A stretch of DNA of 64,000 nt from Actinomycetota bacterium (GTDB taxonomy: Bacteria > Actinomycetota > Thermoleophilia > Solirubrobacterales > Solirubrobacteraceae), in NCBI GenBank assembly GCA_018268595.1, contig JAFDWH010000017.1, positions 62,001 to 126,000 on the forward strand, given 5' to 3'. Made by a program: the position numbers and the translations under genes. Below the pieces are notes generated by a model, which saw nothing but the letters and a program-made list of their open reading frames with translations, made no database searches and was not told the origin of the DNA. Within the stretch, counting starts at the first letter, position 1. Each line of letters begins with the position of its first letter. Shown here piece after piece: positions 34,207-60,020 of the stretch.

Positions 34207-36135
34207 ATGATGGAGCAGCAGACCGAAGAGACCACCCGCGGCCTGACAGGCGCCCGGGCAGTGGCGCGGGCGCTGGTTGACAATGGCGTGACCGATCTCT
34301 TCGGCGTGCACGGCTACATCAACCCGGTGCTCGAGGAGGCGTGCCAGCTCGGGGTGAGAATGTGGCACTTCCGCCACGAGCAGGCGGCCGGCTTCGCCGC
34401 CGACGCCTACGCGCGCACCATCCGCAAGCCGGGCGTCTTCTTCGCCTCGGCGTCCGCGGGCATGGCGAACTGCCTCTCGTCGCTCTCGCAGGGCATCGGC
34501 GCGCGCAGCCCGATGGTGCTGCTCGTGGGTCAGCACGGGACCGCGGGCGACGGGCTGGAGACGCTCCAGGAGGGTTACGCCGCCGAGGCCTTCAAGACGG
34601 TCGCGAAGTGGACGCATCGCTGCACGGACCCCGAGCTGAACGCGTACTGGATGCGCAAGGCGCTCGTCGACGCGGTCTCCTACCCGCCCGGCCCGGTGGT
34701 GCTCGAGTTCCCGCTGAACAACCAGTGGACCCCGGCGCCCGTGCCGCAGCTCAAGTACCGCGAGACCGGCGGGCTGCCCGAGCTGCCGCAGACGCAGGGC
34801 GACCCGGCGCGCGTGGACCGCGTCGCCGAGCTGCTGCGCGCCGCCGAGCGGCCCGTGCTGATCGCCGGCGACGGCGTGCACTGGTCCGACGGGGCGTCGG
34901 AGTACCAGCGGCTCGCGGAGCTGCTGCAGGCGCCCGCGGGCGCGCGGCGGACGGCGCGCGGCGCGATGCCCGAGGACCATCCGCTCGCGTTCACGAGCGG
35001 CTACCGCAAGCCGCTGTTCGAGCAGGCCGACCTGATCTGCGTCGTCGGCCTGCAGGCGGGCGAGCTCGACTCGTGGTTCGAGGCGCCGGAGTGGCCGCAG
35101 GACGTCACCTACGTGCAGATCCAGGAGACGCAGCAGGACGTCTGGTACGCGATGCCGTCGAGCGAGATCGTCGTCGGCTCCAGCCGGCTTGTGCTGCGCC
35201 AGCTGATCGATCGCCTCGAAGGCGACGGCCAGCGCGAGCGCGACGCGTGGACCGAGGTCCTCGACGGTGCGCGGACCCGCCATTGCGAGCGCCGTCAGCA
35301 GCTCGCGGAGAAGTACGCCGACCGCACGCCGATCCACACCTACGAGCTTGCGCAGGCGATCGGCGAGACCGTCGCCCCCGACGCCACGATCATCTACGAC
35401 TCCTACCAGGGGTCGCTCTACCTCACGGACGCGATCAAGGCCCGCTTCTCCGGCCAGGTGCTCGACGCCGGGCCGCGCGTCGCGCTCGGGCAGGGCGTCG
35501 GCATGGCGTTCGGCGCGGCGGTCGCGCGGCCGGGCGCGCAGGTCCTGACGCTCGTCGGCGACGGCGGCATCGGCCTCGCCGGCATGGACCTGGAGACGCT
35601 CGCGCGCTACGAGATCCCGGCCGTCGTCGTGATCCTCAACAACAGCTCGTGGGGCGGCGGCTCGCTGGTCCAGGAGGACATCCAGCCGGGCATGGCCTCG
35701 TGGGGCATCACGGAGGACACGCACTACGACCAGGTCTTCGCGCCGCTCGGCTGCCACACCGAGCGCGTCACCTCCGCGGACCAGCTGCGCCCGGCGCTGG
35801 AGCGCGCGCTCGCGAGCGGGAGAACGGCGGTCGTCGACGTCGTCGCGGACACCGACGGGCCGGCGGTGTCGGTCCCGTGGCTGCGTCTGAAGACGGGCGA
35901 GTTCTACAGCCGCGGCATCGACGACCTGCCCGCGTCGGTGCTGAAGCACTTCCACGCCGTCTCGCCGATCGAGGCGCTGCGGCTGCACAAGATGGCGCGC
36001 GACAACGGGACGCGGATCCCGGTCTCGTTCCTCGCGCAGCTCACGGGCCACGACGAGCAGCAGCTCGTGGAGGCGGCCGAGCGCTCCGGCTATCCGCTGT
36101 CGCCGGTCGGCGAGCCCGCGGGGGCCCCGTCGTGA
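34207..36135 (+). CDS. Thiamine-diphosphate-dependent enzyme (acetolactate synthase-like)
   Basis: The 642-residue protein has the three domains of decarboxylase/lyase ThDP enzymes. The catalytic glutamate lies in FRHEQAAGFAADAYAR, the ThDP-Mg motif is GDGGIGLAGMDLETLARYEIP ending in NN (about residues 454-480), and the middle Rossmann-like domain shows RPVLIAGDGVHWSDGAS. The start at 34207 follows AAGGA; a GTG at 34183 has no ribosome site. Possible roles are decarboxylation of a 2-keto acid or C-C lysis. The CoA-ligase gene starts inside its stop (GTGA). Confidence 0.85.
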   Translation: MMEQQTEETTRGLTGARAVARALVDNGVTDLFGVHGYINPVLEEACQLGVRMWHFRHEQAAGFAADAYARTIRKPGVFFASASAGMANCLSSLSQGIGARSPMVLLVGQHGTAGDGLETLQEGYAAEAFKTVAKWTHRCTDPELNAYWMRKALVDAVSYPPGPVVLEFPLNNQWTPAPVPQLKYRETGGLPELPQTQGDPARVDRVAELLRAAERPVLIAGDGVHWSDGASEYQRLAELLQAPAGARRTARGAMPEDHPLAFTSGYRKPLFEQADLICVVGLQAGELDSWFEAPEWPQDVTYVQIQETQQDVWYAMPSSEIVVGSSRLVLRQLIDRLEGDGQRERDAWTEVLDGARTRHCERRQQLAEKYADRTPIHTYELAQAIGETVAPDATIIYDSYQGSLYLTDAIKARFSGQVLDAGPRVALGQGVGMAFGAAVARPGAQVLTLVGDGGIGLAGMDLETLARYEIPAVVVILNNSSWGGGSLVQEDIQPGMASWGITEDTHYDQVFAPLGCHTERVTSADQLRPALERALASGRTAVVDVVADTDGPAVSVPWLRLKTGEFYSRGIDDLPASVLKHFHAVSPIEALRLHKMARDNGTRIPVSFLAQLTGHDEQQLVEAAERSGYPLSPVGEPAGAPS

Positions 36136-37526
36136 CGGCAGCGGAGCGCCGCAGCGTCGCGCGACGCGAGTCCGAGCACCCGCGCTTCTTCAACGCGGAG
36201 CGCGAGACGATGGAGCCGGCGCGGCGCGAGGAGATCGTCCTCGCGCGCGTCCGGCACCAGCTCACGTACGTCTACGAGCACGTCCCCTTCTACCGGCGCC
36301 ACTACGACGCGCACGGCTTCAAGCCGCAGGACGTCGCGTCGCTCGAGGACTTCACGCGCAAGGTGCCGGTGGTGACGAAGAAGCAGCTCGTCGCCGACCA
36401 GGCGGAGCATCCGCCGTTCGGGTCCTACCTCGGCGTGGAGCGCTCCGAGCTGGCGCGCATCCAGGGCTCGTCGGGGACGTCGGGCAGACCGACGCTCTAC
36501 GGGATCTCGACGGACGACTGGCAGCGCTCGCACGAGGTCTCGTGCATGGCGCTGTGGTCGGCCGGCGTGCGTCCCGACGACGTCGTGCAGATCTCGTTCC
36601 CGTTCAGCCTCTTCCTCGGCGGCTGGGGCCTCTTGCAGGCGTGCGAGGCGCTCGGCGCATGCGTGCTGCCGGTCGGCAGCCTCGTGCCGACCGACCAGCA
36701 GGTCCGCTTCCTCGCGGACGTCGGCGTCGACGTGCTCGTGGCGACGCCGTCGTATGCGCTGCACCTCGGCCGGCGGGCGGCGGAGCTCGGCGTCGACCTG
36801 GACGGAAGCCAGCTCGGCGTCGTGATCGTGGCGGGCGAGCCCGGCGGCAGCGTGCCCGCGATACGCCAGTCGATGAGCGAGTTGCTCGGGGGCGCCGACG
36901 TGATCGACCTCGGCGCCGGCTCCTCGTCGGAGCTGTACCCGTTCTACGCGAACGTCGGCTGCCGCCACACCGACGGCGGCGTCCACCTGATCCAGGACGA
37001 GAACTTCACCGAGATCGTCGCCAAGGACGATCCCAACGAGCCGGTTGCGCCCGGCACCTCCGGCGGCGTCGTGGCCACGCACCTGTGGCGCAGATCGCAG
37101 CCGATGATCCGCTTCTGGCTCGGCGACGAGGGTGTGCTCGACGACGCTCCCTGCGCGTGCGGGCGCACGTACCCGCGCCTGCCGAAGGGCGTCTACGGCC
37201 GCCTCGACGACATGCTGCTGATCCGCGGCGCGAACGTGTATCCGAGCGCGATCGACGCGGTCGTGCGCGAGACGCCCGGCACCGGCCCGGAGTACCGGAT
37301 CGTCGTGGAGCGCCGCGGCGAGCTGGACGAGCTGCGCGTCGAGGTCGAGTCGGAGGCGCCGCTCGCCGCGGAGGACGCCAGCGGCCTCGGAGCCGAGCTG
37401 GGCCGCCGGCTCAAGGAGGCGCTCTCCGTCCGCGTGGACGTGGCCGTGAAGGAGCCGGGCAGCTTCGAGACGCAGGTCTTCAAGGCCCGGCGCGTGGTCG
37501 ACCGCCGCGCGGCGGTCGGCAGCTGA
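36132..37526 (+). CDS. PaaK-like acyl/aryl-CoA ligase
   Basis: The 464-residue protein belongs to the phenylacetate-CoA ligase group of adenylate-forming enzymes: QGSSGTSGRPTLYGIS (phosphate loop), LGAGSSSELYPF, GVVATHLWRRSQPMIRFWLGD, CACGRTYPRL and YGRLDDMLLIRGANVYPSAID. It should activate a carboxylic acid with ATP and CoA. Its start overlaps the ThDP enzyme stop. It may provide the CoA ester handled by the hydratase and thiolase upstream. Confidence 0.9.
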   Translation: MTAAERRSVARRESEHPRFFNAERETMEPARREEIVLARVRHQLTYVYEHVPFYRRHYDAHGFKPQDVASLEDFTRKVPVVTKKQLVADQAEHPPFGSYLGVERSELARIQGSSGTSGRPTLYGISTDDWQRSHEVSCMALWSAGVRPDDVVQISFPFSLFLGGWGLLQACEALGACVLPVGSLVPTDQQVRFLADVGVDVLVATPSYALHLGRRAAELGVDLDGSQLGVVIVAGEPGGSVPAIRQSMSELLGGADVIDLGAGSSSELYPFYANVGCRHTDGGVHLIQDENFTEIVAKDDPNEPVAPGTSGGVVATHLWRRSQPMIRFWLGDEGVLDDAPCACGRTYPRLPKGVYGRLDDMLLIRGANVYPSAIDAVVRETPGTGPEYRIVVERRGELDELRVEVESEAPLAAEDASGLGAELGRRLKEALSVRVDVAVKEPGSFETQVFKARRVVDRRAAVGS

Positions 37527-37546: not shown

Positions 37547-38056
37547 ATGGCCGAGACACAGGACACGAGCCGTGAGCTGATCGTCCGGGGTGGTGAGCGG
37601 ACGGGGTACTGGTTCCTCAACGATTACGTCGAGATGCTCGCCACGGGTGAGGACACCGAGGGTCGCTACACGCTGTTCGAGGTGAACGGACCGCCCGGTG
37701 ACGAGCCGCCGCTGCATCTTCACCACAACGACGACGAGGCGTTCCTCGTGCTCGAAGGCGAGCTGGAGGTGTGGATCGGCTCGACGCACACGACGTTGCG
37801 TCCGGGCGACTACGCGCTGCTGCCCAAGGGCGTGCCGCACATCTATCGCGTCTCGTCGGCGGAGCCGGCGCGCTGGCTCGTGCTGCTGGCGCCGGCGGGC
37901 TTCGACAACTTCCTGCGCGCGGTCTCCAGACCGGCCGAGGAGGCGCGCATCCCGGACCCGCCGGCGCCGCCGACGCCGGCCGACGCCGAGCGGCTCGGCG
38001 CGCTCGCCGCCGAGAGCGGCATGGACATCCTCGGACCGCCCGGGGCGCGGCCGTAG
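37547..38056 (+). CDS. Cupin-domain protein
   Basis: The 169-residue protein is a single-domain cupin with metal ligands in LHLHHNDDEAFLVLEGELEVW and PGDYALLPKGVPHIYR (two histidines, glutamate and a further histidine). It resembles quercetin-dioxygenase-like cupins, which are oxygenases, isomerases or sensors. The ATG follows AAGGAG, 20 bases after the CoA ligase, and the LinD-like gene follows at 13 bases, so all three share a transcript. Confidence 0.8.
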   Translation: MAETQDTSRELIVRGGERTGYWFLNDYVEMLATGEDTEGRYTLFEVNGPPGDEPPLHLHHNDDEAFLVLEGELEVWIGSTHTTLRPGDYALLPKGVPHIYRVSSAEPARWLVLLAPAGFDNFLRAVSRPAEEARIPDPPAPPTPADAERLGALAAESGMDILGPPGARP

Positions 38057-38069
38057 GGGGGCGAGGGCC

Positions 38070-39728
38070 GTGGCGATAGCCCACACGCGCGGAAGATGGT
38101 GGAAGGGGGCAGACGTCGAGCCCGTCGCGCTGGGCCCGGGGACAGGAGGCCGATTCGCCGGTCGCGTGCGGTCGCTGCGCGAGATCGTCCAAGGCGTGCC
38201 CGCGTTGAGCGACGAGGCGATGGGGTGGCTCGCGTACCTGCATCGCAAGGTCGGCTTCGGCGGGACCTGGTCGAAGGACGACGTTCCGCACGAGGCCTGG
38301 GACGACCGCTCCTTCACCCCGTCGGGGAACTTCCCGCGCTACGACATCTCCTGGGCGTCCTGGTCGCTCGCGCTGATGGCGGAGACGACGCCGGCTTGGC
38401 GGGAGACCTACACCGGGATCCTCGGATACATGGCCGAGCGGTACCTGGAGTACTGGGCGCTGTACGAGTGGCTCGAGCACCGGGGCGACGATCCGATGCG
38501 CGACCGGTACCCGCCGGAGTGGGCTTCGGGCCTGCCGCCCGATCTGGTGGGCCGGTACAACATCTCAGGTTGGGCCGGCAACGGGATGGGCGGCTACGAG
38601 TACGACCCCGACCCCGTGCGCGGCGGTGGGCAGAACCTCATGTACAAGGGGTATTTGAACCTCGCGCTGTCCTTGTACGCCTACGTGTCGGGCGACGATC
38701 GCTATGACCGGCCGTTCGACGTGGTCTACGACGAGGACCATGTCTTCCGTTACGACCATCGCGAGCTGAACGAGCTGATCGCAAGGCAGTGGCGCGAGTT
38801 CTGGCCCGGCATCGCCTGTGAGGCAGGCAAGATCTTCCCGTGGTGCAACAACCTGACGGGAACCGCCGTCCGGCTGTTCGACACGATGCACGGGACGAGC
38901 CTGTCGTACGCCTACGACAACTGGAAGCGCTACGCCAGTCGGCACTACTTCCAGGCCGGCACCGAGACCGGTCCGATCGAGTCGGTGACGAACTACTACG
39001 ACCCGGGGATCGACTTCCATCTCAACGCGCCGGATCTGCAGGGGGCGACGATCTACGCGCCGGTGACGTGGCACGGGATCGGCCTCGACCGTCCGCTGTT
39101 CGAGCGGATGTACGAAGGGATGCTCCGCCACTTCCTGCGCGAGCAGCCCGACGGCACCGCGTACCTCTCGCCGGTGCCCGGCATGGACGTCGATGCCAAC
39201 GCGGCCACCGGGCTTGGCGCGGCATGCGCGCTCGAGCTGGGGGACCGCGAGACGTACAGCGCCCTGCGCGGATGGATAGAGGCAAGCTACGAGCCGACAT
39301 GGGATGACGAGCACGGCGAGTTCTCCTTCGGCTTCGGCCTGGACGAGCGCTGGCCTCGCGGGCAGTACAACGGCTGGGTGATGCCGGCGTTCGTGCTGGA
39401 GCGTCCGGGTCAGTGGCAGGCGCTGCACACGCATCCGAACACCGCGAAGTTCCGCGAGCCCACGCTGGAGGGCGTGGACTATCCGACGGTCCGGGTGCGT
39501 CAGGCGTTCTACGACAGCGCCGAGCGCGTGCTGAACGTCGCCGTGACGTCCGCGGACGAGCGGGCGCTGGGGCGGCCGACGACGCTGACGATCTCGAACC
39601 TGCTCGATGGAGCGCAGTACCGGCTGCAGTTGGACGGCCAGGTCGTCGACGCCGGACCTCCGCGCGACGGCCGGATCGTCGTCGCCACCACGGTCGGCGC
39701 GCACACGCTGGTCGTGCAGCGCGTGTGA
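38070..39728 (+). CDS. Linalool dehydratase/isomerase (LinD)-like protein
   Basis: The 552-residue protein matches the alpha/alpha-barrel LinD family of Castellaniella. Its Cys250 (GIACEAG) and Cys259 (PWCNN) reproduce catalytic C171 and C180 with the same nine-residue spacing, and Met191 (NLMYKGYLNL) equals M125; LinD His129 is Tyr195 here. RLFDTMHGTS also fits. A C-terminal beta domain (about 470-552) and an N-terminal extension are additions. There is no signal peptide, unlike LinD. It likely hydrates or dehydrates an unsaturated alcohol, or the fold is recruited for something new. GTG start after GGGGGGCGAGG. Confidence 0.75.
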   Translation: MAIAHTRGRWWKGADVEPVALGPGTGGRFAGRVRSLREIVQGVPALSDEAMGWLAYLHRKVGFGGTWSKDDVPHEAWDDRSFTPSGNFPRYDISWASWSLALMAETTPAWRETYTGILGYMAERYLEYWALYEWLEHRGDDPMRDRYPPEWASGLPPDLVGRYNISGWAGNGMGGYEYDPDPVRGGGQNLMYKGYLNLALSLYAYVSGDDRYDRPFDVVYDEDHVFRYDHRELNELIARQWREFWPGIACEAGKIFPWCNNLTGTAVRLFDTMHGTSLSYAYDNWKRYASRHYFQAGTETGPIESVTNYYDPGIDFHLNAPDLQGATIYAPVTWHGIGLDRPLFERMYEGMLRHFLREQPDGTAYLSPVPGMDVDANAATGLGAACALELGDRETYSALRGWIEASYEPTWDDEHGEFSFGFGLDERWPRGQYNGWVMPAFVLERPGQWQALHTHPNTAKFREPTLEGVDYPTVRVRQAFYDSAERVLNVAVTSADERALGRPTTLTISNLLDGAQYRLQLDGQVVDAGPPRDGRIVVATTVGAHTLVVQRV

Positions 39729-39749
39729 GGCACTCCGGAGGCGAACGAC

Positions 39750-40163
39750 ATGCACCTGCCGATCCCGAACGAGGCGCTGGCCAGCCGCCTGCTGATCGCA
39801 TGGGAGCGCGGGGAGCTCCAGCGCTGGGCCACGCGCCTGTTCGCCCCCGGCGTCGCCATCCACGCCGACGACGGACATGACGTGGAGCTGCTCGGGCCCG
39901 AGGCGGTCGTCTCCGGCGTCTTCGACCCGCTGCGCGACGAGCTGGACGGCCCGTCGCTCGTGGCGGCCGTGGCGCTCGACGTCGATCGCGACGGCGCGAC
40001 GCTGTCGTTCGAGCGCGGTGGTGCGCGGCGGGAGCTCTACCTGCACGTCGGCGGCGGCCGGATCGATCAGGTCTGGTCACGCAAGGCGATCCCCTCGGCG
40101 ACGAGGGGTGAAGGCGCATGGTCGGATGGGGGGTCCTGCGGACCTCGCTGCTGTGGCGGCTGA
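39750..40163 (+). CDS. Small NTF2/SnoaL-like protein
   Basis: The 137-residue protein starts after CCGGAGG, 21 bases downstream of the LinD-like gene. It reads ASRLLIAWERGELQRWATRLFAPGVAIH and LGPEAVVSGVFDPLRDEL, then two beta strands ending in HVGGGRIDQVW, which resembles a NTF2-like cone fold that binds small molecules or acts as cyclase/isomerase. The C-terminal 20 residues are low-complexity and cysteine-rich (CGPRCCGG) and may be spurious readthrough. It ends the operon that begins with the ThDP enzyme. Confidence 0.6.
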   Translation: MHLPIPNEALASRLLIAWERGELQRWATRLFAPGVAIHADDGHDVELLGPEAVVSGVFDPLRDELDGPSLVAAVALDVDRDGATLSFERGGARRELYLHVGGGRIDQVWSRKAIPSATRGEGAWSDGGSCGPRCCGG

Positions 40164-41506: not shown

Positions 41507-42720
41507 CGCCGGTGCGTCATCTCATGGAGCCGGCCTACGCGAGTCGCCGTGCGATGGCCGTGTACGACCCCGGCGCAGTCGTCGACACCTCGAAGGTCGC
41601 GGTGATGGCGGTCTCCGACCCCTTCGATCCAGACGACTGCACGCCCCAGCACGTCCGCGACGCGGCGGTCGCCTGTCTGGACGGCCACGGCGCGCACTAC
41701 AGCACGCCCTTCGGCGAGCGTGACCTGCGCGAGCTGATCGCCGAGAAGGTCGCGCGCGTGAACGGCTTGGAGGTCGATCCCGACCGCAACATCACGGTCT
41801 CGCCCGGAGCGGACCCCCTGCTGACGTTCTGCGCCCGGCCGTTCCTCGAGCCTGGGGCGGGCCACGAGATACTGACCCCGATCCCGGCGTTCAACTCGAA
41901 CCTCGAGGTGGGAGCGCTCACGGGTGGCGTCACCGTGCCCGTCCCGACCCGGGAGGAGGACGGCTTCGAGCTGCGCATGGACGAGTTCGAGCGGCTGCTG
42001 ACGCCGCGGACGAAGCTCGTGCTGCTCACGAACCCGAACAATCCGACGACCACGGTGTACAGCCGCCGGTCGCTCGAGCAGCTCGCCGAGTTCGCGATCG
42101 CCAACGACCTCGTCGTGATCAGCGACCAGGCGTTCGAGGAGCTCGTCTTCGACGGACACGAGATGACGGACATCGCGGCGCTGCCGGGCATGGCCGAGCG
42201 CACGATCGTGATCTGCTCCCTGTCCAAGGGCATGGGGCTCTCCGGGTACCGCATCGGCTACGCCGTGGCATCCGAGGACATCACCGATGTACTGCATTCC
42301 TGTGTGCCTCATGTCTTCGGTGCGCCGAACACCGTTGCTCAGGCTGCGGCCGTGGCGGCGCTTCGCGACCCGGGGTTCGTCGAGTCCTACCGGCGCGAGT
42401 ACATGGCGCGGGCGGCGCGGATCTGCGCGCTGCTCGACACCGTCCCGCAGCTCCGCTACGTCCAACCGCGCAGCGGGTTCTGCGTCTGGCTCAACGTCGC
42501 CGCCTACGGCGGAGCGTCCACCGTCGCCGAGTACCTGCTCCGCGAGGCGCACGTCATGGTCACCGAGGGCGGCATGTTCGGCAGCGAGGACCACATCCGG
42601 CTCGTCTACGCGGCCTTCGCGCAACGCGAGCGCTGCCTCGATGCCGTCGAGCGTGTCGTCGATGCGCTCCGGCGTCTCAGCCCGCAGGACCCGACGCCGG
42701 TCCCTCGACGCCGCCGCTGA
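41503..42720 (+). CDS. PLP aminotransferase, class I/II
   Basis: The 405-residue protein has the fold-type I aminotransferase pattern: HYSTPFGERDLRELIAEKV, LLTNPNNPTTTVYSR, SDQAFEELVFDG (aspartate for the ring nitrogen) and the PLP lysine in CSLSKGMGLSGYRIGY. The GTG start at 41503 overlaps the upstream stop; ATG at 41524 is the alternative. It may convert an amino acid or amine in the pathway to a keto compound. The 3' end overlaps the convergent PucR gene by 44 bases. Confidence 0.88.
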   Translation: MTPVRHLMEPAYASRRAMAVYDPGAVVDTSKVAVMAVSDPFDPDDCTPQHVRDAAVACLDGHGAHYSTPFGERDLRELIAEKVARVNGLEVDPDRNITVSPGADPLLTFCARPFLEPGAGHEILTPIPAFNSNLEVGALTGGVTVPVPTREEDGFELRMDEFERLLTPRTKLVLLTNPNNPTTTVYSRRSLEQLAEFAIANDLVVISDQAFEELVFDGHEMTDIAALPGMAERTIVICSLSKGMGLSGYRIGYAVASEDITDVLHSCVPHVFGAPNTVAQAAAVAALRDPGFVESYRREYMARAARICALLDTVPQLRYVQPRSGFCVWLNVAAYGGASTVAEYLLREAHVMVTEGGMFGSEDHIRLVYAAFAQRERCLDAVERVVDALRRLSPQDPTPVPRRRR

Positions 42721-43891
42721 GGCGCAGCAGACGCAGGCTGAGATGGAGCGCGAGCCGGTCCTCGCCGCTCTTGAACGTGACTCCCGCGATGCGCTCTGCC
42801 TTCTCGAGTCGCGCGTAGACGCTCGTCCGGTGCAGCGAGAGCTGCGATGACGTGGCCTTGATGTCGCCGCCGAGCTCGAGGTAGCGCTCGACCGTGCGCA
42901 GCAGCTCCGGGTCGCCGGTCAGCTCGCGGAACGAGGTCGGGATCTCGGCGAGGACGTCGTCGTCGGTCGAGAGGAGCGAGAGCATGCGGTTGACCCCGAG
43001 GTCGCACCATCCGACCGGACGCGGGAGCCGCGGTAGGCGGTCGGCGACGCGCAGGGCACGCAACGCCTGTTCGTGACTCGTGCTCGCGTCGACAAGGCGG
43101 GCGACCTCCGCGCCGAAGCCGGCGTCGACGCTGGTGAGCGCTCCGCCGTCCTCGTCGGCGACGCTCGTCGCCGCGCGGTGTGCGAACTCGCGGACGCTGC
43201 CGCCGAGGCGAGCGGGATGGACGAGCAGGACGGCCCAGTCGGCTCGCGCGAACTCGACGGACGATCCGGGCGGCAGCGTGCGGCGAGCACGGGCGAGGCC
43301 CCGCCTGACGGAGATCTCGATCTGCTCGAGCTGCTCCACGGGGGCCTCCCAGCACAGCACGATCGCCGCGACCGGGAGCGTCGTGAGCAGGCCCTCGCGC
43401 ACGAGCTGCTCGGACGCGCGCTCGCACGCGTCCGCTTCGCCGAAGAGCAGGTCGTGGACGAGCGTCCGCTCGTGGGCGTGCTCGACCTCGTGCAGCAGCC
43501 GCTCGCGGTAGAGGATCGCCGCCGCGATCGTGCCGGCGCTCTCGTAGACCTCGACGTCGCCGTCCGCGATCGTGCCATCGATGTCGAGGACGCTCAAGTA
43601 GCCGAGCATGAGGGCCTTGCAGCGCAGCGGAACGAACAGACGTGCGCTGAACCCGAGCTCCGGATTGTTTGGCACGAGCGTGGACCCCGCCGCACGTTCG
43701 ACGCCTCGCGCTCGCGTCCAGTCGACGAGTTCGTCGGACACGCGCCGCGCGAGGATGGACCGCTCGCGCGCCTCGTCCGTGCCGGTCGCGTGCGAGCTGT
43801 GAACGAGCAGGCGGCCATGACGATCGTCGATGGTGACGGGGCGCCCGAGCCGATCGAAGAGATCGTCGGCGACTTCCTGCAGGTCTTGCAT
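42677..43891 (-). CDS. PucR/CdaR-family transcriptional regulator
   Basis: The 404-residue protein has an N-terminal GAF-like sensory part (residues 1-135, with the segment GRLLVHSSHATGTDEARERS), a GGDEF-like middle (CdaR type) and the C-terminal PucR helix-turn-helix with TVERYLELGGDIKATSSQLS and LHRTSVYARLEKAERIAGV. Members regulate catabolism of purines, amino acids and aromatic compounds and are usually induced by a pathway ligand. It sits beside the operon it most likely controls and diverges from the response-regulator gene. Confidence 0.88.
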   Translation of the reverse strand: MQDLQEVADDLFDRLGRPVTIDDRHGRLLVHSSHATGTDEARERSILARRVSDELVDWTRARGVERAAGSTLVPNNPELGFSARLFVPLRCKALMLGYLSVLDIDGTIADGDVEVYESAGTIAAAILYRERLLHEVEHAHERTLVHDLLFGEADACERASEQLVREGLLTTLPVAAIVLCWEAPVEQLEQIEISVRRGLARARRTLPPGSSVEFARADWAVLLVHPARLGGSVREFAHRAATSVADEDGGALTSVDAGFGAEVARLVDASTSHEQALRALRVADRLPRLPRPVGWCDLGVNRMLSLLSTDDDVLAEIPTSFRELTGDPELLRTVERYLELGGDIKATSSQLSLHRTSVYARLEKAERIAGVTFKSGEDRLALHLSLRLLRLSGGVEGPASGPAG

Positions 43892-45549: not shown

Positions 45550-47592
45550 ATGGCGACGCGTATCGGTGTGGACGTCGGTGGGACGTTCACCGACTTGGTG
45601 TTCTTCGATGAGGCCACTGGTGAGACGCGTGTGGCCAAGGGCGCCACGACGCCGGGTCGCCAGGCTGCCGGAGTCATGGATGTCGTAGGCAGCACCGTGA
45701 CGGGCGACGAGCTGGCCCGGACCGCGTACTTCCTGCACGCCACGACGGTCGGGATCAACGCGCTGCTGGAGCGCAGAGGCGCACGCGTCGGACTGCTCGC
45801 GACCGCCGGGTTTCGCGATGTGCTGGAACTGCGTCGCGGCACGCGCGGCGACGCGATGTACGACCTGCACTATCAGCCGCAGCCTGCACTGGTTCCACGC
45901 CGTCTGCGCCTCGGCGTGGGCGAGCGGATCTTGGCTGACGGAACGGTCGAGCGGCCCCTCGACGAGGACGACGTCGCGCGGGCGTTGGAGCTGTTCGCGG
46001 CCGAGGGCGTCGAAGCGATCGCGGTGTGCTTCCTGCATGCCTACGCGTTCCCCGCCCACGAGCTGGAGGCCGAGCGCGTGCTGCGGCGGCTGGGGTTCGA
46101 GGGCACGATCACGTTGTCGCATCGGCTGTCGCGCGAGGTGCGCGAGTTCGAGCGTACGGCGACGAGCGTGGTGGACGCCTACGTGCGTCCGGCGGTCTCT
46201 TCCTATCTGGACCGGCTCGGTGACGGGCTGCGTGACAGTGGGTTCGGCGGCGAGGGGCTGATCACGCGATCCGGCGGCGGGTCGATCACGTTCGCCGAGG
46301 CGCAGGCACGGCCGTTCGAGACCGTGATGTCGGGTCCGGTCGCCGGTGCGGTGGGAGCCGGCGCCCTGGCGCGCGCGCTCGGTCTGTCACGCGCGATCAC
46401 CGCGGACGTCGGCGGGACGAGCTTCGACACATGCCTGCTGGTGGACGGGTGGCCGCTGGTGAAGTACGAGGGCGAGGTCGGCGACCTGCCGCTGCAGACG
46501 ACGTGGGTCGATGTGCGATCGATCGGCTCCGGCGGCGGGTCGGTCGTGTACGTGGACGAGAGCGCGATGTTGCGCGTGGGGCCGCAGAGCTCCGGCGCGG
46601 TCCCCGGACCGGTTTGCTACGGCCGAGGTGGCACTCAGCCCACGACCACCGACGCCGCAGCCGTCCTGGGGATGCTGGCCTTCGGCGAGCTGGCAGGCGG
46701 CTTGCGGCTCGACATCCCGGCGGCCGAGCGAGCGATCGACGGGATCGGCGACGCGCTGGGCCTCGATCGCGACGACGTCGCGAGCGGGGTGATTGCGATC
46801 GCCGCGGCGGCGATGGCGGGCGCGGTGCGGTCGGTGTCGCTCGAGCAGGGCGAGGACCCACGCGACGCGGCACTGATCGCCTACGGCGGTGCGGGCCCGA
46901 TGCTGGCCACGGTGATCGCGCGGGAGCTCGACATCGCTTCGATCGTCGTTCCGAAGCATGCTGGCAACTTCTCGGCGGCGAGCCTGCTCGGCCAGGACAT
47001 CACCCGTGCCGCGTCGGTGTCGATGATCCGGCCGCTGGACGCCGACGCCATCGCGGCAGCTTGCGACGGCGTGGGCCATCTGCGTCGTGACCTGGAAGAG
47101 CGTTCGGAGGGCAATCGGGTCGCGGCCGGAGCGCGGACGCTGGAGCCCGCGTTGGAGCTCCGCTACCTGGGCCAGTACTACACCCTGACGGTGCCCTGGC
47201 CCGAGCCGTCTCCCGGCGACGATCCGGCCCTGCTGGCGCAGGCGTTCTCGTCTCAGTACCAGAAGGTCTTCGGCCACACGCTCGAGGCACCGGTCGAGCT
47301 CGTCGCCGTGCGGCTCACGTCGCGCGAGCCGCTGCCGGAGCGCGACGCGTCGACCGACCGGGACGCCGGCGGCGAGGCTGCGCCGGACCGCGTGCATCAG
47401 GCCTACTCCTTCGAGCTCGGTGAGCGCGTCGAGTTCGTCGTGCGCGACCGCGCCGCGTTGATCGGCCAGCCGGGCGACGGGCCGATGATCGTCCTCGAGC
47501 CGACAACCACGACCTACGTCGATGCGGGCTGGTCCGTTCGTGTCGATCCCAGCGGGGCGCTCCTTGTCGCCCGGAAGGAGGAAGGGCGATGA
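45550..47592 (+). CDS. hyuA: Hydantoinase/oxoprolinase subunit A
   Basis: The 680-residue protein is the A subunit of ATP-dependent hydantoinases and oxoprolinases. It opens with TRIGVDVGGTFTDLVFFDE, an actin-like ATP-binding motif, and contains DVGGTSFDTCLLV, RSIGSGGGSVVYVDES and AYGGAGPMLATVIAREL. These enzymes open cyclic amides such as hydantoins, 5-oxoproline or N-methylhydantoin using ATP. The start follows TTGAGGAGAG. The B subunit overlaps by four bases, and an ABC importer gene follows. Confidence 0.93.
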   Translation: MATRIGVDVGGTFTDLVFFDEATGETRVAKGATTPGRQAAGVMDVVGSTVTGDELARTAYFLHATTVGINALLERRGARVGLLATAGFRDVLELRRGTRGDAMYDLHYQPQPALVPRRLRLGVGERILADGTVERPLDEDDVARALELFAAEGVEAIAVCFLHAYAFPAHELEAERVLRRLGFEGTITLSHRLSREVREFERTATSVVDAYVRPAVSSYLDRLGDGLRDSGFGGEGLITRSGGGSITFAEAQARPFETVMSGPVAGAVGAGALARALGLSRAITADVGGTSFDTCLLVDGWPLVKYEGEVGDLPLQTTWVDVRSIGSGGGSVVYVDESAMLRVGPQSSGAVPGPVCYGRGGTQPTTTDAAAVLGMLAFGELAGGLRLDIPAAERAIDGIGDALGLDRDDVASGVIAIAAAAMAGAVRSVSLEQGEDPRDAALIAYGGAGPMLATVIARELDIASIVVPKHAGNFSAASLLGQDITRAASVSMIRPLDADAIAAACDGVGHLRRDLEERSEGNRVAAGARTLEPALELRYLGQYYTLTVPWPEPSPGDDPALLAQAFSSQYQKVFGHTLEAPVELVAVRLTSREPLPERDASTDRDAGGEAAPDRVHQAYSFELGERVEFVVRDRAALIGQPGDGPMIVLEPTTTTYVDAGWSVRVDPSGALLVARKEEGR

Positions 47593-49314: not shown

Positions 49315-50880
49315 ATGCGGACGCTCACCACATCGCCCCGGGCCCGGCACGCGGCTGAGGAAGGCGCACCGTCCGGGGCGGCCGTCGCACTGGAGAACGT
49401 CGGCAAGACGTTCGGCGCCGTGCGTGCACTGCATCAGGTCTCCGTTCGGGTCGAGCCCGGCACGATCCACGCGCTCGTCGGCGAGAACGGCGCGGGCAAG
49501 TCGACCCTCGGGAAGATCATCGCCGGGGTCCATGCGCCGGACGCGGGCCAGGTGATCGTCGACGGCCGGCGCCGACGCTACGGATCGCCGCACGACGCGC
49601 TGCGGGACGGCGTGACGATCGTCGCCCAGGAGCTGGCCCTGATGCCGCGCCGGTCCGTCGCCGAGAACGTGGTGCTGGGCGACTTTCCGAGCCGGCTGGG
49701 GTGCCTGGATCGTCACGCGTTGCGCAGGCGCTACGACGCGCTGGTCGAGCAGGCCGGGTTCGTGCTGCCAGCCGATGCGCTGGTCGGCGATCTGCGGCTG
49801 GCCGACCAGCAGAAGGTGGAGATCCTGCGCGCGCTGGCCCGGGGAGCACGGCTGATCGTGATGGATGAGCCGACTGCGGCGCTGGCCCAGGAGGAGACCG
49901 AGCAGCTGCTCGCGATCGTCCGCGCGCTTCGCGACCAAGGCACGACGATCGTGTACGTGTCGCACTTCCTCACGGAGGTCCTGGCCGTGGCCGACACCGT
50001 CACGGTGCTGCGCGACGGCCGTCTGATCGCCACCGCGCCGGCGCGCGAGGAGACGGAGGCGGGCTTGATCGCCAAGATGATCGGGCGATCGCTCGACGCG
50101 GCGTTCCCGCCGCGGCCCGCGGTCCCCGACAAGGCGCCCGCGGTGCTGCGTGTGCGCGGGCTCAGCGCCGGCAACGCGATCCACGACGTGTCATTCGAGG
50201 TGCGTGCCGGTGAGGTGCTCGGCTTTGCCGGCCTCGTCGGCAGCGGGCGGTCGGAGGTCGCGCTCGCCATCTCCGGGGCGCTGCGGCCCGAGGCGGGCAG
50301 CGTCGAGCTCGACGGGAGGCCGATCGCGCCGCGCTCGCCCGGTGGCGCGACGCGCCTGGGGATCGCGTTGCTGCCGGAGTCGCGCAAGACGCAGGGGCTG
50401 ATCCTCGGTCGCTCGATCGCCGAGAACGTGGCGTTGCCGCACCTGCGGCATGTCTCGCGGTTCGGCGTCGTCAGCCGTCGCCGGGAGCGGCGGGTGACCT
50501 CGGAGGTCGCGACGCGTCTGGACGTGCGCGCACCCAGCGTCGCCACGCCGGTCGGCGCGCTCTCGGGTGGGAATCAGCAGAAGGTGCTCTTCGCGAAGGC
50601 GCTGCTGCGGCCACCGCGGGTGCTCATCGCCGACGAGCCCACGCGCGGCGTGGACATCGCGGCCAAGCGCGCGATCTACGACCTGATCGTCGGCTTGGCG
50701 CGAGACGGCATGGCCGTCGTGCTGATCTCGTCGGAGCTGGAGGAGGTGCTCGCGCTCGCCCATCGCGTGTGCGTGATGCGGGCCGGGCGGATCGTCTCCA
50801 CGCTCGACGGCGGCGACGTGAGCGAGCAAGCGGTGATGGTGGCCGCGTTCGGGTCGGACGAGGCAGGAGGCGGGCGATGA
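49315..50880 (+). CDS. ABC importer ATPase, RbsA-type (system 1)
   Basis: The 521-residue protein has two fused nucleotide-binding domains. The first has Walker A GENGAGKS (about residue 60), LRLADQQKVEIL as signature and Walker B RLIVMDEPT; the second has a degenerate Walker A (GLVGSGRSE), the LSGGNQQKV signature and VLIADEPTRGVD. This is the standard ribose/xylose/autoinducer-type importer ATPase. It follows hyuB by 13 bases and overlaps the permease start. It is strongly similar to the ATPase at 61019-62587. Confidence 0.95.
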   Translation: MRTLTTSPRARHAAEEGAPSGAAVALENVGKTFGAVRALHQVSVRVEPGTIHALVGENGAGKSTLGKIIAGVHAPDAGQVIVDGRRRRYGSPHDALRDGVTIVAQELALMPRRSVAENVVLGDFPSRLGCLDRHALRRRYDALVEQAGFVLPADALVGDLRLADQQKVEILRALARGARLIVMDEPTAALAQEETEQLLAIVRALRDQGTTIVYVSHFLTEVLAVADTVTVLRDGRLIATAPAREETEAGLIAKMIGRSLDAAFPPRPAVPDKAPAVLRVRGLSAGNAIHDVSFEVRAGEVLGFAGLVGSGRSEVALAISGALRPEAGSVELDGRPIAPRSPGGATRLGIALLPESRKTQGLILGRSIAENVALPHLRHVSRFGVVSRRRERRVTSEVATRLDVRAPSVATPVGALSGGNQQKVLFAKALLRPPRVLIADEPTRGVDIAAKRAIYDLIVGLARDGMAVVLISSELEEVLALAHRVCVMRAGRIVSTLDGGDVSEQAVMVAAFGSDEAGGGR

Positions 50881-51866
50881 GCGTTCCCGATACCGCGACC
50901 CCGATCGCCGCCGCCGGCCGATCGCGGACTTCGCTGCGGCTCGCGGCATTGCGCGACTACGGCATCGTCGCGAGCTTCCTGGCGTTGCTCCTGGTGCTGT
51001 CGGTCTCGAGCGACGCGTTCCTGACGACGACGAACCTGCTCAACATCCTCGACCAGTGGTCGCCGACGCTGATCATGGCCGCATCGAGCACGATCGTGTT
51101 CGTCGCAGGCGGGTTCGACCTGTCGATTGGTTCGATCTTCGGCCTCGCCGGGGTCATCGCGGCGCTCCTGGCCGACAAGGTCGGCGTCGTCCCGGCGATG
51201 CTGCTCGGCCTCGGCGCTGGCGCGACGTGCGGGCTGATCAACGGACTCCTGGCGACGTATGGGCGGATCAACCCCTTCATCACGACGCTGGCGACGATGA
51301 TGATGATCCTGGGCATCGGCTTCGTCTTGACGGGCGGCAATCTGATCTCGGTCACCGAACCGGGGTTCACCGAGCTCGGCACCGGCTCCTTCCTCGGTCT
51401 CGACTACACGATCTGGGTGGCGGCGCTGTTCGTCGGCGGCTGCGGCTTCCTCCTCTCGCGCACCTTGTACGGCCGTTACGCGTTCGCTGTCGGCGGCAAC
51501 CCCGAGGCCGCCTGGCTGTCGGGCGTGAGGGTGAATCGCGTGCGCGTGATCGCGTTCGTGCTGAGCGGCACGTCGGCCGCGCTCGCCGGCCTGCTCGCCG
51601 CCTCTCGCGTCTCGACCGGTCAGGCCGACGCCGGCGGCCTGAACCTTGCGCTCGACGCCGTCACCGGCGTCGTGCTCGGCGGTGTGAGCATCGCCGGAGG
51701 GGAGGGCGCGATCTGGCGCACCGGGCTCGGTGTGCTGCTCCTCGCCTTGATCGGCAACGGCTTCAACTTGCTGGGCATCGACGCGACGTATCAACGCATC
51801 GTCCAGGGCGCCATCATCCTCGCCGCCGTCGGCGTGGATGCGTGGGCCAGGACCGCCCGACCCTAG
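50877..51866 (+). CDS. ABC importer permease, RbsC-type (system 1)
   Basis: The 329-residue membrane protein has about eight to ten helices and the RbsC hallmarks GGFDLSIGSIFGLAGV, NGLLATYGRINPFITTLATMMM and the cytoplasmic loop YAFAVGGNPEAAWLSGVRVNRV. It makes the transport channel with the upstream ATPase, whose stop overlaps its start. Its closest relative in the window is the permease at 62584-63576. Confidence 0.95.
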   Translation: MSVPDTATPIAAAGRSRTSLRLAALRDYGIVASFLALLLVLSVSSDAFLTTTNLLNILDQWSPTLIMAASSTIVFVAGGFDLSIGSIFGLAGVIAALLADKVGVVPAMLLGLGAGATCGLINGLLATYGRINPFITTLATMMMILGIGFVLTGGNLISVTEPGFTELGTGSFLGLDYTIWVAALFVGGCGFLLSRTLYGRYAFAVGGNPEAAWLSGVRVNRVRVIAFVLSGTSAALAGLLAASRVSTGQADAGGLNLALDAVTGVVLGGVSIAGGEGAIWRTGLGVLLLALIGNGFNLLGIDATYQRIVQGAIILAAVGVDAWARTARP

Positions 51867-51898
51867 AGCCTCTCGGTTTCTCGGAAGGAGACCACACC

Positions 51899-52954
51899 AT
51901 GTATGGACGGGTTCTCGCAGGACTCTGTGCGCTCGCAGTCGCCATGACGTTGGCGGCATGTGGGAGCTCCGACTCCGGCGACAAGACGAAGGCCGCCGGA
52001 GGAGCCGGCACGACGGCAAGCACGAAGCCGCTGAACATCGGCGTCTTCGCGACACAAGCCAACGCGTTCTTCGCGAAGCAGACGGAGACCGCTCGCGAGT
52101 GGGCCGCGAAGAACGGAGCCAAGGTCACCGTCTACGACCCGGGCTTCGACCCGCAGAAGCAGTTTGCGCAGATCCAGGACGCGATCGCGCAGGGCAAGCT
52201 CGACGGCATGGTCATCGCGCCGCTGAACGGACCCTCGCTTGCGCCGCTCGCGGCGCAGGCCCACAAGGCCGGTATCGCCACGGTCGCGGTCAGCACCCCG
52301 CTCAGCACGGATTACGCCAGCACCGATCCGAAGGTGCCAGGGCTCGACGGGTTGGTCTGGGAGCCGCTGGTCAACGTCGGCGACATCCTGGCCAGACAGG
52401 TCGCCGCCGCGTGCGAGGGGATCGACCCCTGCAAGGCGGTGTACCTGTCGGTTTCGCCGACCCTGCCCGCCGAGACGGCCCTGTACAACGCCTACGAGCA
52501 GACGCTCAAGAGCCACGCGAACATCACCGTACTGCCGCAGATGGGCCCGACGATGGCGCAGCGCGGGCCGACCGTGGGCATCACCCAGGACCTGCTGCAG
52601 GCGCACCCGGACGTCAACGTGATCGCGTCCTCCGACCAGGCGCTGTTCGGGGCCGAGGTCGCCCTGAAGAAGGCCGGCAAGAGCATCGGGACGGGGCCGG
52701 GCGACGTCCGCCTGGTGGGCAGCGGAGGAACGGTGGACGGGGTGCAGCGCGTCGCGGACGGCGCGTGGGCTTCGACGCACATCGCCCTCCCGGTCGAGAC
52801 GATGACGCAGGCGCTGACCATCCTCGAGGACGCGATCTCGGGCAAGCTCACGGCGCCGAAGGGGCTCGATCCGGTGGCAGACAGCAAGTATCCGTCTGTC
52901 ATGACCAAGGAGGCCGTCAAGCAGAGCGGCTTCCGGGGCGAGTACAACGGCTGA
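51899..52954 (+). CDS. ABC substrate-binding lipoprotein (system 1)
   Basis: The 351-residue protein has a lipoprotein signal (LAAC, lipid-modified Cys21) and a Peripla_BP_4 fold: NIGVFATQANAFFAKQTETA, AQGKLDGMVIAPLNGPSLAPL and QDLLQAHPDVNVIASSDQALFGAEVALKKAG. It captures the ligand outside the membrane. The start follows GGAAGGAG. Such proteins bind sugars, autoinducer-2 or other small solutes, so the ligand is open. It is a paralogue of the protein at 58882-59922. Confidence 0.93.
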   Translation: MYGRVLAGLCALAVAMTLAACGSSDSGDKTKAAGGAGTTASTKPLNIGVFATQANAFFAKQTETAREWAAKNGAKVTVYDPGFDPQKQFAQIQDAIAQGKLDGMVIAPLNGPSLAPLAAQAHKAGIATVAVSTPLSTDYASTDPKVPGLDGLVWEPLVNVGDILARQVAAACEGIDPCKAVYLSVSPTLPAETALYNAYEQTLKSHANITVLPQMGPTMAQRGPTVGITQDLLQAHPDVNVIASSDQALFGAEVALKKAGKSIGTGPGDVRLVGSGGTVDGVQRVADGAWASTHIALPVETMTQALTILEDAISGKLTAPKGLDPVADSKYPSVMTKEAVKQSGFRGEYNG

Positions 52955-52957
52955 GTC

Positions 52958-54289
52958 ATGGACCACGCCGCCGTGATCGCCCAGGTGCGAGCGGATCTGG
53001 AGCGCCTCGTGCGCATCCCCTCGATCTCGCTCGACTCGTATCCGACCGGGCCGCTGCTTGAGGCGGCCCGGACGACGGCCGCCATCCTCAGCGCGGCCGG
53101 ATTGAGAGACGTGGAGCTGCTGGACGTCGAGGGCGGAGCGCCGGTGGTGTACGGCGCGGTTCCGCCGCCGGCGGGCGCTCCCACTGTGCTGCTGTACGCC
53201 CACTACGACGTCCAGCCTCCGGGTCCGCTCGAGGAATGGTCGAGCGATCCGTTCGACCCGGTCGAGCGCGATGGGCGCCTCTACGGTCGCGGCACGGCCG
53301 ACGACAAGTACGGCATTGCGATGCACGCGGCGCTGCTGCGCGCGTTCGACGGCCGGCCGCCGGTCGGCGTCAAGGTGGTCATCGAGGGCGACGAGGACAG
53401 CGGTCGCAGCTCGTTCGGCGCGGTGCTCGGCCAACACGCCGAGCGCCTGGCCGCCGATGTGATCGTCGTCGCCGATGCGGGGAACTGGCGCCGCGGTCAG
53501 CCCACGCTCTACAGCTCGGTGCGCGGCGGCGCCGTCCTCGACGTCGAGGTCCGTGCGCTCGCGGCGCCGCAGCACAACGGCGTGTTCGGCGGGCCGGTGC
53601 CCGACGCCCTCACCGCGCTCATGCGGATGTTGGCGTCGCTGCACCGTCCCGACGGAAGCGTGGCGGTCGACGGGCTGCGTCGGGATGCTTGGGACGGTCC
53701 GCCGGTCGACGAGTCGTGGGTCCGGGCGGGTGCCGGGATGCTCGACGGGGTCGAGCTGATCGGCAGCGGCACGCTTGCCGATCAGCTCTACTGCGCCCCG
53801 TCCATCAACACGATCGGGCTCGACGCGCCGGCGGTCGACTCGGCCGGCAACGCGCTCGTCCCTTCGGCTCGGGCGCGTCTGTGCGCGCGGTTGGCGCCGC
53901 AGGAGGATCCCGCGGCGGCGGTCGAGGCGATCGGCGCGCATCTGCGTGCCGCGGCTCGGTGGGGGGTCGAGGTGGAGGTCCGGACGCTCCAGCTCGCACG
54001 CGGCATCCGGCTCGAGTCGGGCGGACCGGCGGAGACGGCTGCACGCGACGCGCTCGCGGAGGCCTACGGCACGCCCGCGGTGGTGATGGGCGTGGGTGGC
54101 GGCAACCCGATCATCGATGCCTTCGCGACCGCGCTGCCGAACGCCGAGTTCGTCTTCTGGGGCGCGGCCGACGACGGATCGCGGATCCACTCGAGCAACG
54201 AGTCGATCGACCTCGCGGAGCTCGAGCGCGCAACGCTGGCGCAGATCAAGTTCGCCGAGGCGCTCGGCGCCCGGAGGAGCGCCTCCTGA
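52958..54289 (+). CDS. M20-family dipeptidase/amidohydrolase
   Basis: The 443-residue protein is a zinc peptidase of the M20 dipeptidase subgroup. Metal ligands and catalytic residues appear in LLYAHYDVQPPG, GRGTADDKYG, EGDEDSGRSS, VVADAGNW and the C-terminal IHSSNESID, with a dimerisation domain inserted. The sequence WSSDPFDPVERDGRLYGRG is typical of PepV/Dug1-like dipeptidases. It begins three bases after the binding-protein gene, ending operon 1. It may cleave the opened product of the hydantoinase. Confidence 0.9.
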   Translation: MDHAAVIAQVRADLERLVRIPSISLDSYPTGPLLEAARTTAAILSAAGLRDVELLDVEGGAPVVYGAVPPPAGAPTVLLYAHYDVQPPGPLEEWSSDPFDPVERDGRLYGRGTADDKYGIAMHAALLRAFDGRPPVGVKVVIEGDEDSGRSSFGAVLGQHAERLAADVIVVADAGNWRRGQPTLYSSVRGGAVLDVEVRALAAPQHNGVFGGPVPDALTALMRMLASLHRPDGSVAVDGLRRDAWDGPPVDESWVRAGAGMLDGVELIGSGTLADQLYCAPSINTIGLDAPAVDSAGNALVPSARARLCARLAPQEDPAAAVEAIGAHLRAAARWGVEVEVRTLQLARGIRLESGGPAETAARDALAEAYGTPAVVMGVGGGNPIIDAFATALPNAEFVFWGAADDGSRIHSSNESIDLAELERATLAQIKFAEALGARRSAS

Positions 54290-54298
54290 GTCACACCA

Positions 54299-54329
54299 CA
54301 GTATTCTGCATGAAAACGGCAGTACACTG
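54299..54329. promoter_or_regulatory. Paired CAGWATWCTG operator before ridA
   Basis: Two ten-base palindrome-like sites, CAGTATTCTG (54299-54308) and CAGTACACTG (54320-54329), lie with starts exactly 21 bases apart and 37 bases before the ridA ATG. The spacing places both on the same face of the helix. They match the other sites listed near 58671, 58732 and 63639. Confidence 0.7.
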
Positions 54330-54366
54330 AATGAACGGGGTGCGCCGACGTGGAACAGGAGGCTTG

Positions 54367-54759
54367 ATGCAGCGAGTCAGAAGCGGCGGCGCGTTCGAGG
54401 AGCTGGCGGCGTACTCACGCGCCGCGCGCGCCGGCGACATCGTGGCCGTGAGCGGCACGGCGGCGCTCGACGCGGACGGCGTCGCGCTCCATGCGGGTGA
54501 CGCCGGCGCACAGACCCGCACGGCGCTCGAGCGCGCGCTCGAGGCGGCGGCCGCACTCGGGGCGCGTCGCGAGGACGTCGTTCGCACGCGGATCTACCTG
54601 GCGACCGACGCCGACTGGCGCGGGCCGGCCGAGGTACACGGCGATCTGTTCGCCGGCATCGACCCGGCCAACACGACGCTGTACGTGGGCGGCTTCATCC
54701 CCGAGGGCTGCCTCGTCGAGGTGGAGATCGACGCGGTCGTCACCGAGCCCGCCGCATGA
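54367..54759 (+). CDS. RidA-family protein
   Basis: The 130-residue protein has the RidA/YjgF fold: YSRAARAGDIVAVSGTAALDADG, GAQTRTALERALEAAAALGA and TRIYLATDADWRGPAEVHGDLF, with EVEIDAVV at the end. RidA hydrolyses reactive enamines and imines made by amino-acid oxidation or PLP enzymes. The start at 54367 follows AGGAGGC. It overlaps the next gene by four bases and has an operator pair just upstream. The FAD oxidase at 57507 and the PLP enzyme downstream would make its substrates. Confidence 0.88.
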   Translation: MQRVRSGGAFEELAAYSRAARAGDIVAVSGTAALDADGVALHAGDAGAQTRTALERALEAAAALGARREDVVRTRIYLATDADWRGPAEVHGDLFAGIDPANTTLYVGGFIPEGCLVEVEIDAVVTEPAA

Positions 54760-55946
54760 CCGGCGCCTTCGACGTCCACGCTGCCCGGCGTCAGTTCGCC
54801 TCGCTGGACGGCAGGCTTGCCTTCTTCGACGCGCCCGGCGGCACGCAGGTTCCCGACGCGGTCCGCGCCGCGGTCGACGAGACGATGCGCGATGCAGCAG
54901 CCAACCTCGGCGGCAGCTTCGCGACGAGCGTGCGTGTCGCCGACGTCGTCGCGCGCGCCCGTGCCGCCGGCGGGCGGTTCCTCGGGTGCTCGCCGGACGA
55001 AGTCGTGTTCGGAGCGAACATGACGAGTCTCAACTTCGCCCTGTCGCGCGCCGTGGGACGCACCCTGCGTGCCGGGGACGAGGTGATCGTCACCCGTCTC
55101 GACCACGACGCAAACGTCGCGCCCTGGCGCGAGCTGGCCCACGACGTCGGCATCGTCGTGCGCCAGGTCGACATCGACCCATCCGACTGCACGGTCGATC
55201 TCGCGGACCTGGAGGCGCAGCTCGGCGAGCGCACGCGCATCGTCGCGTTCCCGTGGGCCTGCAACGCCGTGGGCACCGTGACGGACGCTGCGCGCATCTG
55301 CCGCATGGCGCACGATGCGGGAGCCCTCGCCTGGGTCGACGCCACCCACTACGCCGCACACGAGCCGATCGACGTCGCAGCCGTGGGGGCCGACGTCCTG
55401 CTGTGCTCGCCCTACAAGGTCTGCGGCCCGCATCTGGGCCTCGCGTTCGGCCGGGGGGATCTGCTGGCGGGCTGGCGGCCGTACAAGGTCGCGCCGGCCA
55501 GCGACACGCCCGTGGGGCACCGGTTCGAGACCGGCACGCAACCCTACGAGCAGCTCGCCGGATTCGTCGCGTCGGTCGACTACCTCGAGTCGATCGGCGG
55601 CCTCGAAGCGACGCTCGAGCACACGCGGGCGCTCGGCGAGCAGTTCCTCGCCGGCCTGCCCGCCGGCGTGCGCGTGATCGGACGCCGCACGATGGACGGC
55701 CGAGTGCCCACCTTCCTGCTCACCGCCGACGGCTGGGCGGCCGGCGCCTTGGCCGACGAGCTCGTCGCGCGCGACTTCTGCGTCGGCGCCCATGACACCT
55801 TCTACTGCCTTGGGCTGCACGAGCGCGTCCCCTACGGCGAGGCCGTGCGGGTGGGCATCTTCCACTACCACACCGCCGCGGAGGTCGACGCCCTGCTGGC
55901 GACCGTCAAGGCCCTCGTGCAGCGCCCAGCCGAGCTCGTCGACTAG
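54756..55946 (+). CDS. Class V aminotransferase (cysteine desulfurase-like, VC1184 group)
   Basis: The 396-residue PLP enzyme reads RRQFASLDGRLAFFDAPGGTQVPDAV at the N terminus, has GANMTSLNFALSRAV, VTRLDHDANVAPWRELA and the PLP lysine in LLCSPYKVCGPHLG. It fits the cysteine desulfurase-like VC1184 subgroup, whose reaction is not established. It lacks an iron-sulfur operon context, so a lyase or aminotransferase role in the catabolic pathway is more likely than sulfur transfer. It starts inside the ridA stop. Confidence 0.85.
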   Translation: MTGAFDVHAARRQFASLDGRLAFFDAPGGTQVPDAVRAAVDETMRDAAANLGGSFATSVRVADVVARARAAGGRFLGCSPDEVVFGANMTSLNFALSRAVGRTLRAGDEVIVTRLDHDANVAPWRELAHDVGIVVRQVDIDPSDCTVDLADLEAQLGERTRIVAFPWACNAVGTVTDAARICRMAHDAGALAWVDATHYAAHEPIDVAAVGADVLLCSPYKVCGPHLGLAFGRGDLLAGWRPYKVAPASDTPVGHRFETGTQPYEQLAGFVASVDYLESIGGLEATLEHTRALGEQFLAGLPAGVRVIGRRTMDGRVPTFLLTADGWAAGALADELVARDFCVGAHDTFYCLGLHERVPYGEAVRVGIFHYHTAAEVDALLATVKALVQRPAELVD

Positions 55947-59922: not shown

Positions 59923-59957
59923 CGGAGTCGTAGATCGACGCGCGATGCGAGCGATCG

Positions 59958-59993: not shown

Positions 59994-60020
59994 TTCCACA
60001 CTTGACGAGTGCGAGAGAGC

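Follow-up and report, generated by a model that had tools for sequence, protein, structure and literature searches.

A gene of the Ldi family was located at positions 38070-39728 of the window, the whole stretch of 64,000 nucleotides that was analysed. It lies in a same-strand row of genes that is closed by a regulator gene of opposite orientation:

34207-36135, plus strand: thiamine-diphosphate enzyme (acetolactate synthase or decarboxylase type)
36210-37526, plus strand: PaaK-like CoA ligase
37547-38056, plus strand: cupin-domain protein, 13 bp upstream of the Ldi gene
38070-39728, plus strand: Ldi-family protein of 552 aa with a GTG start (translation, phmmer, PF18566 match, hydropathy)
39750-40163, plus strand: small protein of 137 aa with a predicted NTF2/SnoaL/ketosteroid isomerase fold, the partner gene, 21 bp after the Ldi stop codon
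40352-41506, plus strand: HsaA-like protein with an acyl-CoA dehydrogenase fold; start uncertain, open frame from 40118
41524-42720, plus strand: PLP aminotransferase, class I/II
42677-43891, minus strand: PucR-type regulator

Judged by its sequence, the product of 38070-39728 is a real, divergent and cytoplasmic protein of the Ldi family. The Pfam family PF18566 (Ldi) was matched with 100.7 bits against a curated cut-off of 26.1, LinD (5hlr and others) was the sole match in a phmmer search of the PDB (E 1.7e-10), and a profile built from 18 Ldi members recovered LinD at 1.6e-38. A scan with 19-residue Kyte-Doolittle means peaked at 0.97 and revealed no signal peptide, membrane helix or hydrophobic N-terminus. 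A preliminary description had proposed a cytoplasmic relative of LinD that lacks the signal peptide and has gained two regions. At the family level this proposal is borne out by the Pfam match and the hydropathy scan, and both additional regions are real:

38451-38609, plus strand: insertion, approximately residues 128-180, not present in LinD, common to the sister clade G602/NBC1136/G245
39462-39725, plus strand: C-terminal beta domain, approximately residues 465-552, not present in LinD, found in every non-LinD member compared

By homology, the enzyme would adopt an (alpha/alpha)6 barrel fold in which the two cysteines would face each other; an AlphaFold2 model calculated from a three-sequence alignment had a pLDDT of 35 and was set aside. 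Among the closest known systems is LinD (Ldi) of Castellaniella defragrans 65Phen (EC 4.2.1.127, PDB 5hlr and 5g1u), with which the 552-aa enzyme shares the Ldi domain, the cysteine pair C171/C180 with its nine-residue spacing, E172, M125 and the Y66 column. It differs from LinD in a tyrosine for H129, in the lack of an acid at the D39 position, of the capping disulfide and of the signal peptide, and in the presence of the insertion, the C-terminal domain and a partner gene with an SCCG tail. The capping disulfide is absent since the enzyme has only three cysteines (250, 259 and 386), and the alignment with the LinD rows offered no counterpart for the disulfide cysteines. LinD is a homopentamer active on linalool, myrcene and geraniol, in which Asp39 is provided by the neighbouring subunit. 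Lis of Thauera linaloolentis 47Lol (PMC4791888) resembles the 552-aa enzyme, according to its description, in the Ldi domain, the absence of a cleavable signal peptide and the membership in a reductant-dependent family, but has four N-terminal membrane helices where the 552-aa enzyme is soluble.

The phmmer alignment placed 'NLMYKGYL' on 'NIMYKGHL' of LinD and 'CEAGKIFPWCN' on 'CEPDNYFVQCN', thus confirming the earlier assignments of Met191 to M125 and of Cys250 and Cys259, nine residues apart, to C171 and C180. The positions concerned are:

38640-38642, plus strand: codon of Met191, column of LinD M125, Met in 22 of the 24 non-LinD members
38652-38654, plus strand: codon of Tyr195, column of LinD H129, tyrosine being the family norm
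38817-38822, plus strand: codons of Cys250-Glu251, columns of LinD C171-E172, invariant
38844-38846, plus strand: codon of Cys259, column of LinD C180, invariant

Members of the family were gathered from 396 genomes of the phylum, 399 of the class and 250 of one order as well as from plasmids, and the residue columns were counted over 24 non-LinD members aligned with LinD, i.e., 25 rows. The columns of C171, E172 and C180 were identical in 25 of 25 rows, as they had been in an earlier alignment of 18 members, and this invariance of Cys, Glu and Cys shows that the match of Cys250 and Cys259 to LinD is not due to chance. At the H129 column the 24 other members presented tyrosine (16), phenylalanine (4), tryptophan (3) and only once histidine, in Rhodococcus erythropolis BG43. 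The replacement of His129 by tyrosine, to which the preliminary description had drawn attention, is thus a true residue difference and no special feature; as far as the aligned sequences tell, the histidine of LinD is the exception in the family, not Tyr195. These counts ruled out Tyr195 as a new catalytic solution, and according to the survey H129 is no general catalytic requirement of the Ldi family.

The column of D39 falls in a stretch that is ambiguous to align: it holds Val61 in the 25-row alignment and Gly62 in the phmmer alignment, and in this hard-to-align stretch neither alignment revealed an acidic counterpart of Asp39 in the clade of this enzyme. The acid therefore seems to be missing, and catalysis in the manner of LinD may have been lost with it. 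The conservation of the thiol pair, the glutamate and the methionine together with the loss of the remaining LinD set argues for the chemistry of the family on another substrate. A homologue that is altered in its catalysis or inactive and serves in binding or regulation instead would account for the loss of D39, Y45 and H129; we regard it as very improbable, since Cys, Glu and Cys are invariant, the orthologues share 71-75 % identity across genera, the gene sits within a metabolic gene row, and nearly all members compared lack Y45 and H129 as well. Given the apparent lack of the D39 acid and a neighbourhood unlike a monoterpene cluster, the suggestion of a new substrate is plausible. Linalool is probably not the substrate.

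The genome collection contained only two orthologues, one each from Streptomyces sp. AC512 and Amycolatopsis jejuensis. The same-genus genomes searched lacked the gene, so its distribution is patchy and it was probably spread by transfer. In the Ldi tree, group A comprised the Streptomyces AC512/A. jejuensis clade with the 38070-39728 enzyme, together with G602/NBC1136; group B consisted of soluble proteins, one of them a second Ldi from the same genome, and in group C many members were membrane-anchored. LinD formed a long branch of unsure placement. The clusters around the own gene and its two orthologues (loci L005 and L006) were otherwise unlike, and the Ldi gene and the gene of the small protein alone were kept as a pair. 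A hydantoinase A gene, a PucR regulator and a two-component pair were common to the three loci as well; these genes are generic, and a guess of the substrate from the operon was ruled out on these grounds. The Streptomyces locus (L005:10774-16192) had two S-Me-THD (DUF917) genes together with a PucR regulator and a hydantoinase A gene on the opposite strand. In the window, two separate ABC transporter sets of the sugar type were observed near the two Ldi genes (49315-55946 and 58882-63576), each with a peptidase-fold gene (M20 and M19, respectively), which suggests that a peptide-like or amide substrate is taken up.

The partner gene also comes after the Ldi gene in both orthologue loci. Its product has a cysteine pair near the C-terminus:

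40149-40157, plus strand: C134-C135-G136 in the tail GGSCGPRCCGG, Cys-Cys-Gly kept in three of three

The bodies of the partner proteins have only 43-44 % identity, yet Cys-Cys-Gly is invariant in the tails GGSCGPRCCGG, GSCCGD and GGSCCG, three sequences being a thin base for tail conservation. An AF2 model of the partner reached a pLDDT of 79, with about 90 in the core and less than 50 in the tail; the tail is thus probably flexible. Foldseek retrieved ketosteroid isomerase and SnoaL folds with the model (best natural protein, E 1.5e-5), and membership in the NTF2/SnoaL-like superfamily is predicted, with a cone of curved beta-sheet plus helices. The partner had no match to a curated family, SnoaL_4 staying below the cut-off for one orthologue, and tblastn against plasmids yielded none. 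Among the usable loci of clade A, the tail protein was present in three of five; in a fourth the double cysteine is on the enzyme, the Ldi of G602 itself terminating in KSCRCC, and NBC1136 had none. In locus L036 (G245:C17, 1812/1816) the frame of a clade A Ldi was broken by an in-frame TGA near the position of the second cysteine, which points to a pseudogene or to an error in sequencing.

Many NTF2-like proteins are enzymes, and the neighbour may accordingly carry out its own reaction. Next to an ordinary Ldi enzyme with its own substrate, it would be a separate pathway enzyme, an isomerase or cyclase, and the cysteine tail would have no role towards Ldi. NTF2-like and SnoaL folds are common among metabolic enzymes, the row of thiamine-diphosphate enzyme, CoA ligase, cupin, monooxygenase-like protein and aminotransferase resembles a degradation operon, and a SnoaL gene also adjoins the Ldi gene of Variovorax. 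However, the partner tail does not vary although the body has drifted, three otherwise different clusters keep this gene pair only, and in other clades Ldi genes repeatedly have paired-cysteine proteins of unrelated kinds as neighbours. On balance a separate enzyme is rather unlikely.

The first of these other arrangements was found in the same genome:

L003 1696-3219: second Ldi gene (own2, P0002), approximately 25 kb downstream of the Ldi gene at 38070-39728

Together with a SCO1/SenC gene it occupies L003 1696-3740 (G000:C8, approximately 125695-127739), beginning near the end of the window. The SCO1/SenC protein is unanchored, and the two genes overlap by 4 bp. The second Ldi shares the domain, the cysteine pair, the tyrosine at the H129 column and the solubility with the 38070-39728 enzyme, but belongs to a different clade, has approximately 23 % identity to it and is coupled to SCO1/SenC. 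A hydantoinase A gene after this pair resembles the one at 45550-47592 of the window. In clade B, SCO1/SenC without a membrane anchor followed the Ldi gene in three of five cases (own2, G880 and Agrobacterium vitis), two of them with the 4-bp stop/start overlap. No dicysteine partner was seen beside the Ldi genes of Variovorax, R. erythropolis and G974.

Many Ldi genes of clade C overlap, or lie directly against, the gene of a small membrane protein that begins with M-x-Cys-Cys, continues with one helix and then 'FAPPAR'. Such MxCC proteins, the shortest of 36 aa, were found at L040, L041, L043, L051, L053, L054, L055, L034 and L075-L080; for most of those coupled to Ldi, no Pfam or NCBIfam match above the cut-off was obtained, and they are a candidate for a new protein family. 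In G121 the equivalent is an MCPAC-TM protein (CxxC), encoded 4 bp behind Ldi. The gene order in Rhodococcus opacus and G1222 is Ldi, CtaG, MxCC. At L041, L054, L066, L077 and L080 the protein is a fusion of the MxCC start and a longer membrane domain that contains D-x-H motifs, in L041 with a weak similarity to DUF2243 below the cut-off, and at L076 and L078 a DUF5134-like gene immediately precedes MxCC. The fetched loci contained 10 MxCC frames compared to 0-1 in resampled DNA. In 250 genomes of one order, all matches of an MxCC profile (A3) below E 1e-9 were in five Ldi genomes and none was in the 242 Ldi-less genomes, counts that are partly circular, as the nine members of the profile had all been found beside Ldi genes. 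A later family-wide search, with matches accepted at E 1e-4 or better, was a fair test of the link: six of the eight new matches fell within Ldi loci, one was located at the end of a contig and one lacked an Ldi. In G055 the MxCC gene is at a contig end, on a contig not joined to its Ldi contig. The weakest new match, L082, had no Ldi within approximately 7 kb; its MxCC-like frame (L082:7181-7438, VPCCIALTYLVECIRR...DFAPTASRP) is flanked by genes for a TetR protein and a serine hydrolase. Ldi genes thus have a genomic link to dicysteine proteins of unrelated kinds, and in the other branches the coupling is often translational. The main interest of the locus is the conserved dicysteine partner beside Ldi and the recurrence of this theme across the family.

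SCO and CtaG are copper factors, and methionine and cysteine are common Cu(I) ligands. The non-LinD proteins might carry a metal, Cu(I) being the most likely one, at Cys-Glu...Cys-Met, with SCO, CtaG, MxCC and the SCCG-tail protein as chaperones. The coupling of SCO1/SenC to clade B Ldi, the CuB factor CtaG plus MxCC after Ldi in R. opacus and G1222, the weak DUF2243 and DUF5134 similarities among the clade C neighbours and the frequency of methionine and cysteine as Cu(I) ligands agree with it. The same gene pairs are explained by a plain thiol-reductase role, the unanchored SCO proteins appear to reside in the cytoplasm, which has little free copper, and a search for metal data on any Ldi member found none. 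LinD, moreover, is described as cofactor-free (PMC6013536). We consider metal binding improbable. The literature search, which did not extend to most subscription papers, retrieved no paper linking linalool dehydratase with SCO1/SenC or copper.

LinD is oxygen-sensitive and requires a reductant (PMC6013536), its C170/C179 must remain reduced (PMC6600392), and Lis of Thauera, produced alone in E. coli, showed no activity (PMC4791888). The oxygen sensitivity and reductant demand of LinD and the inactivity of Lis alone point to a need for reduced thiols, which a dedicated thiol partner would meet in membrane-bound as well as cytoplasmic members. The partner is no family-wide need, as E. coli yields active LinD in its absence. 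We tentatively prefer, at a little less than an even chance, the view that the gene encodes a cytoplasmic lyase/isomerase of the Ldi family and that a dedicated dicysteine partner keeps the catalytic thiols of this enzyme competent. The soluble 552-aa enzyme would perform the acid/base chemistry of the family, i.e., loss of the hydroxyl group, its addition or 1,3-shift, or a double-bond shift, in the (alpha/alpha)6 barrel via the invariant Cys250, Glu251 and Cys259. The flexible Cys-Cys-Gly tail of the NTF2-like partner would hold both catalytic thiols in the reduced state or load them in some other way, and the SCO1/SenC and MxCC membrane proteins would do the same job in other Ldi branches. 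Both the thiol role of the partner and the reaction of the enzyme are what we infer from these arrangements.

The broader proposition, that the non-LinD enzymes are thiol-activated or metallo- (perhaps copper-) enzymes dependent on dedicated dicysteine partners (SCO, MxCC, CtaG, SCCG-tail NTF2-like), is more doubtful. If true, it would present an unrecognised activation system for a family now seen as cofactor-free, with the pair at 38070-40163 as one variant. The undescribed link between Ldi and dicysteine proteins may explain how oxygen-sensitive Ldi enzymes stay working. LinD has been studied as a route from alcohols to butadiene, isoprene and myrcene, and to our knowledge few members of the family have been characterised so far; if Ldi enzymes need a dicysteine partner, co-expression could open the rest of the family. 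Multiple Ldi genes in one genome were also observed in G025, with four on two contigs (L038, L039, L025) and SCP2, enoyl-CoA hydratase and thiolase-like genes nearby.
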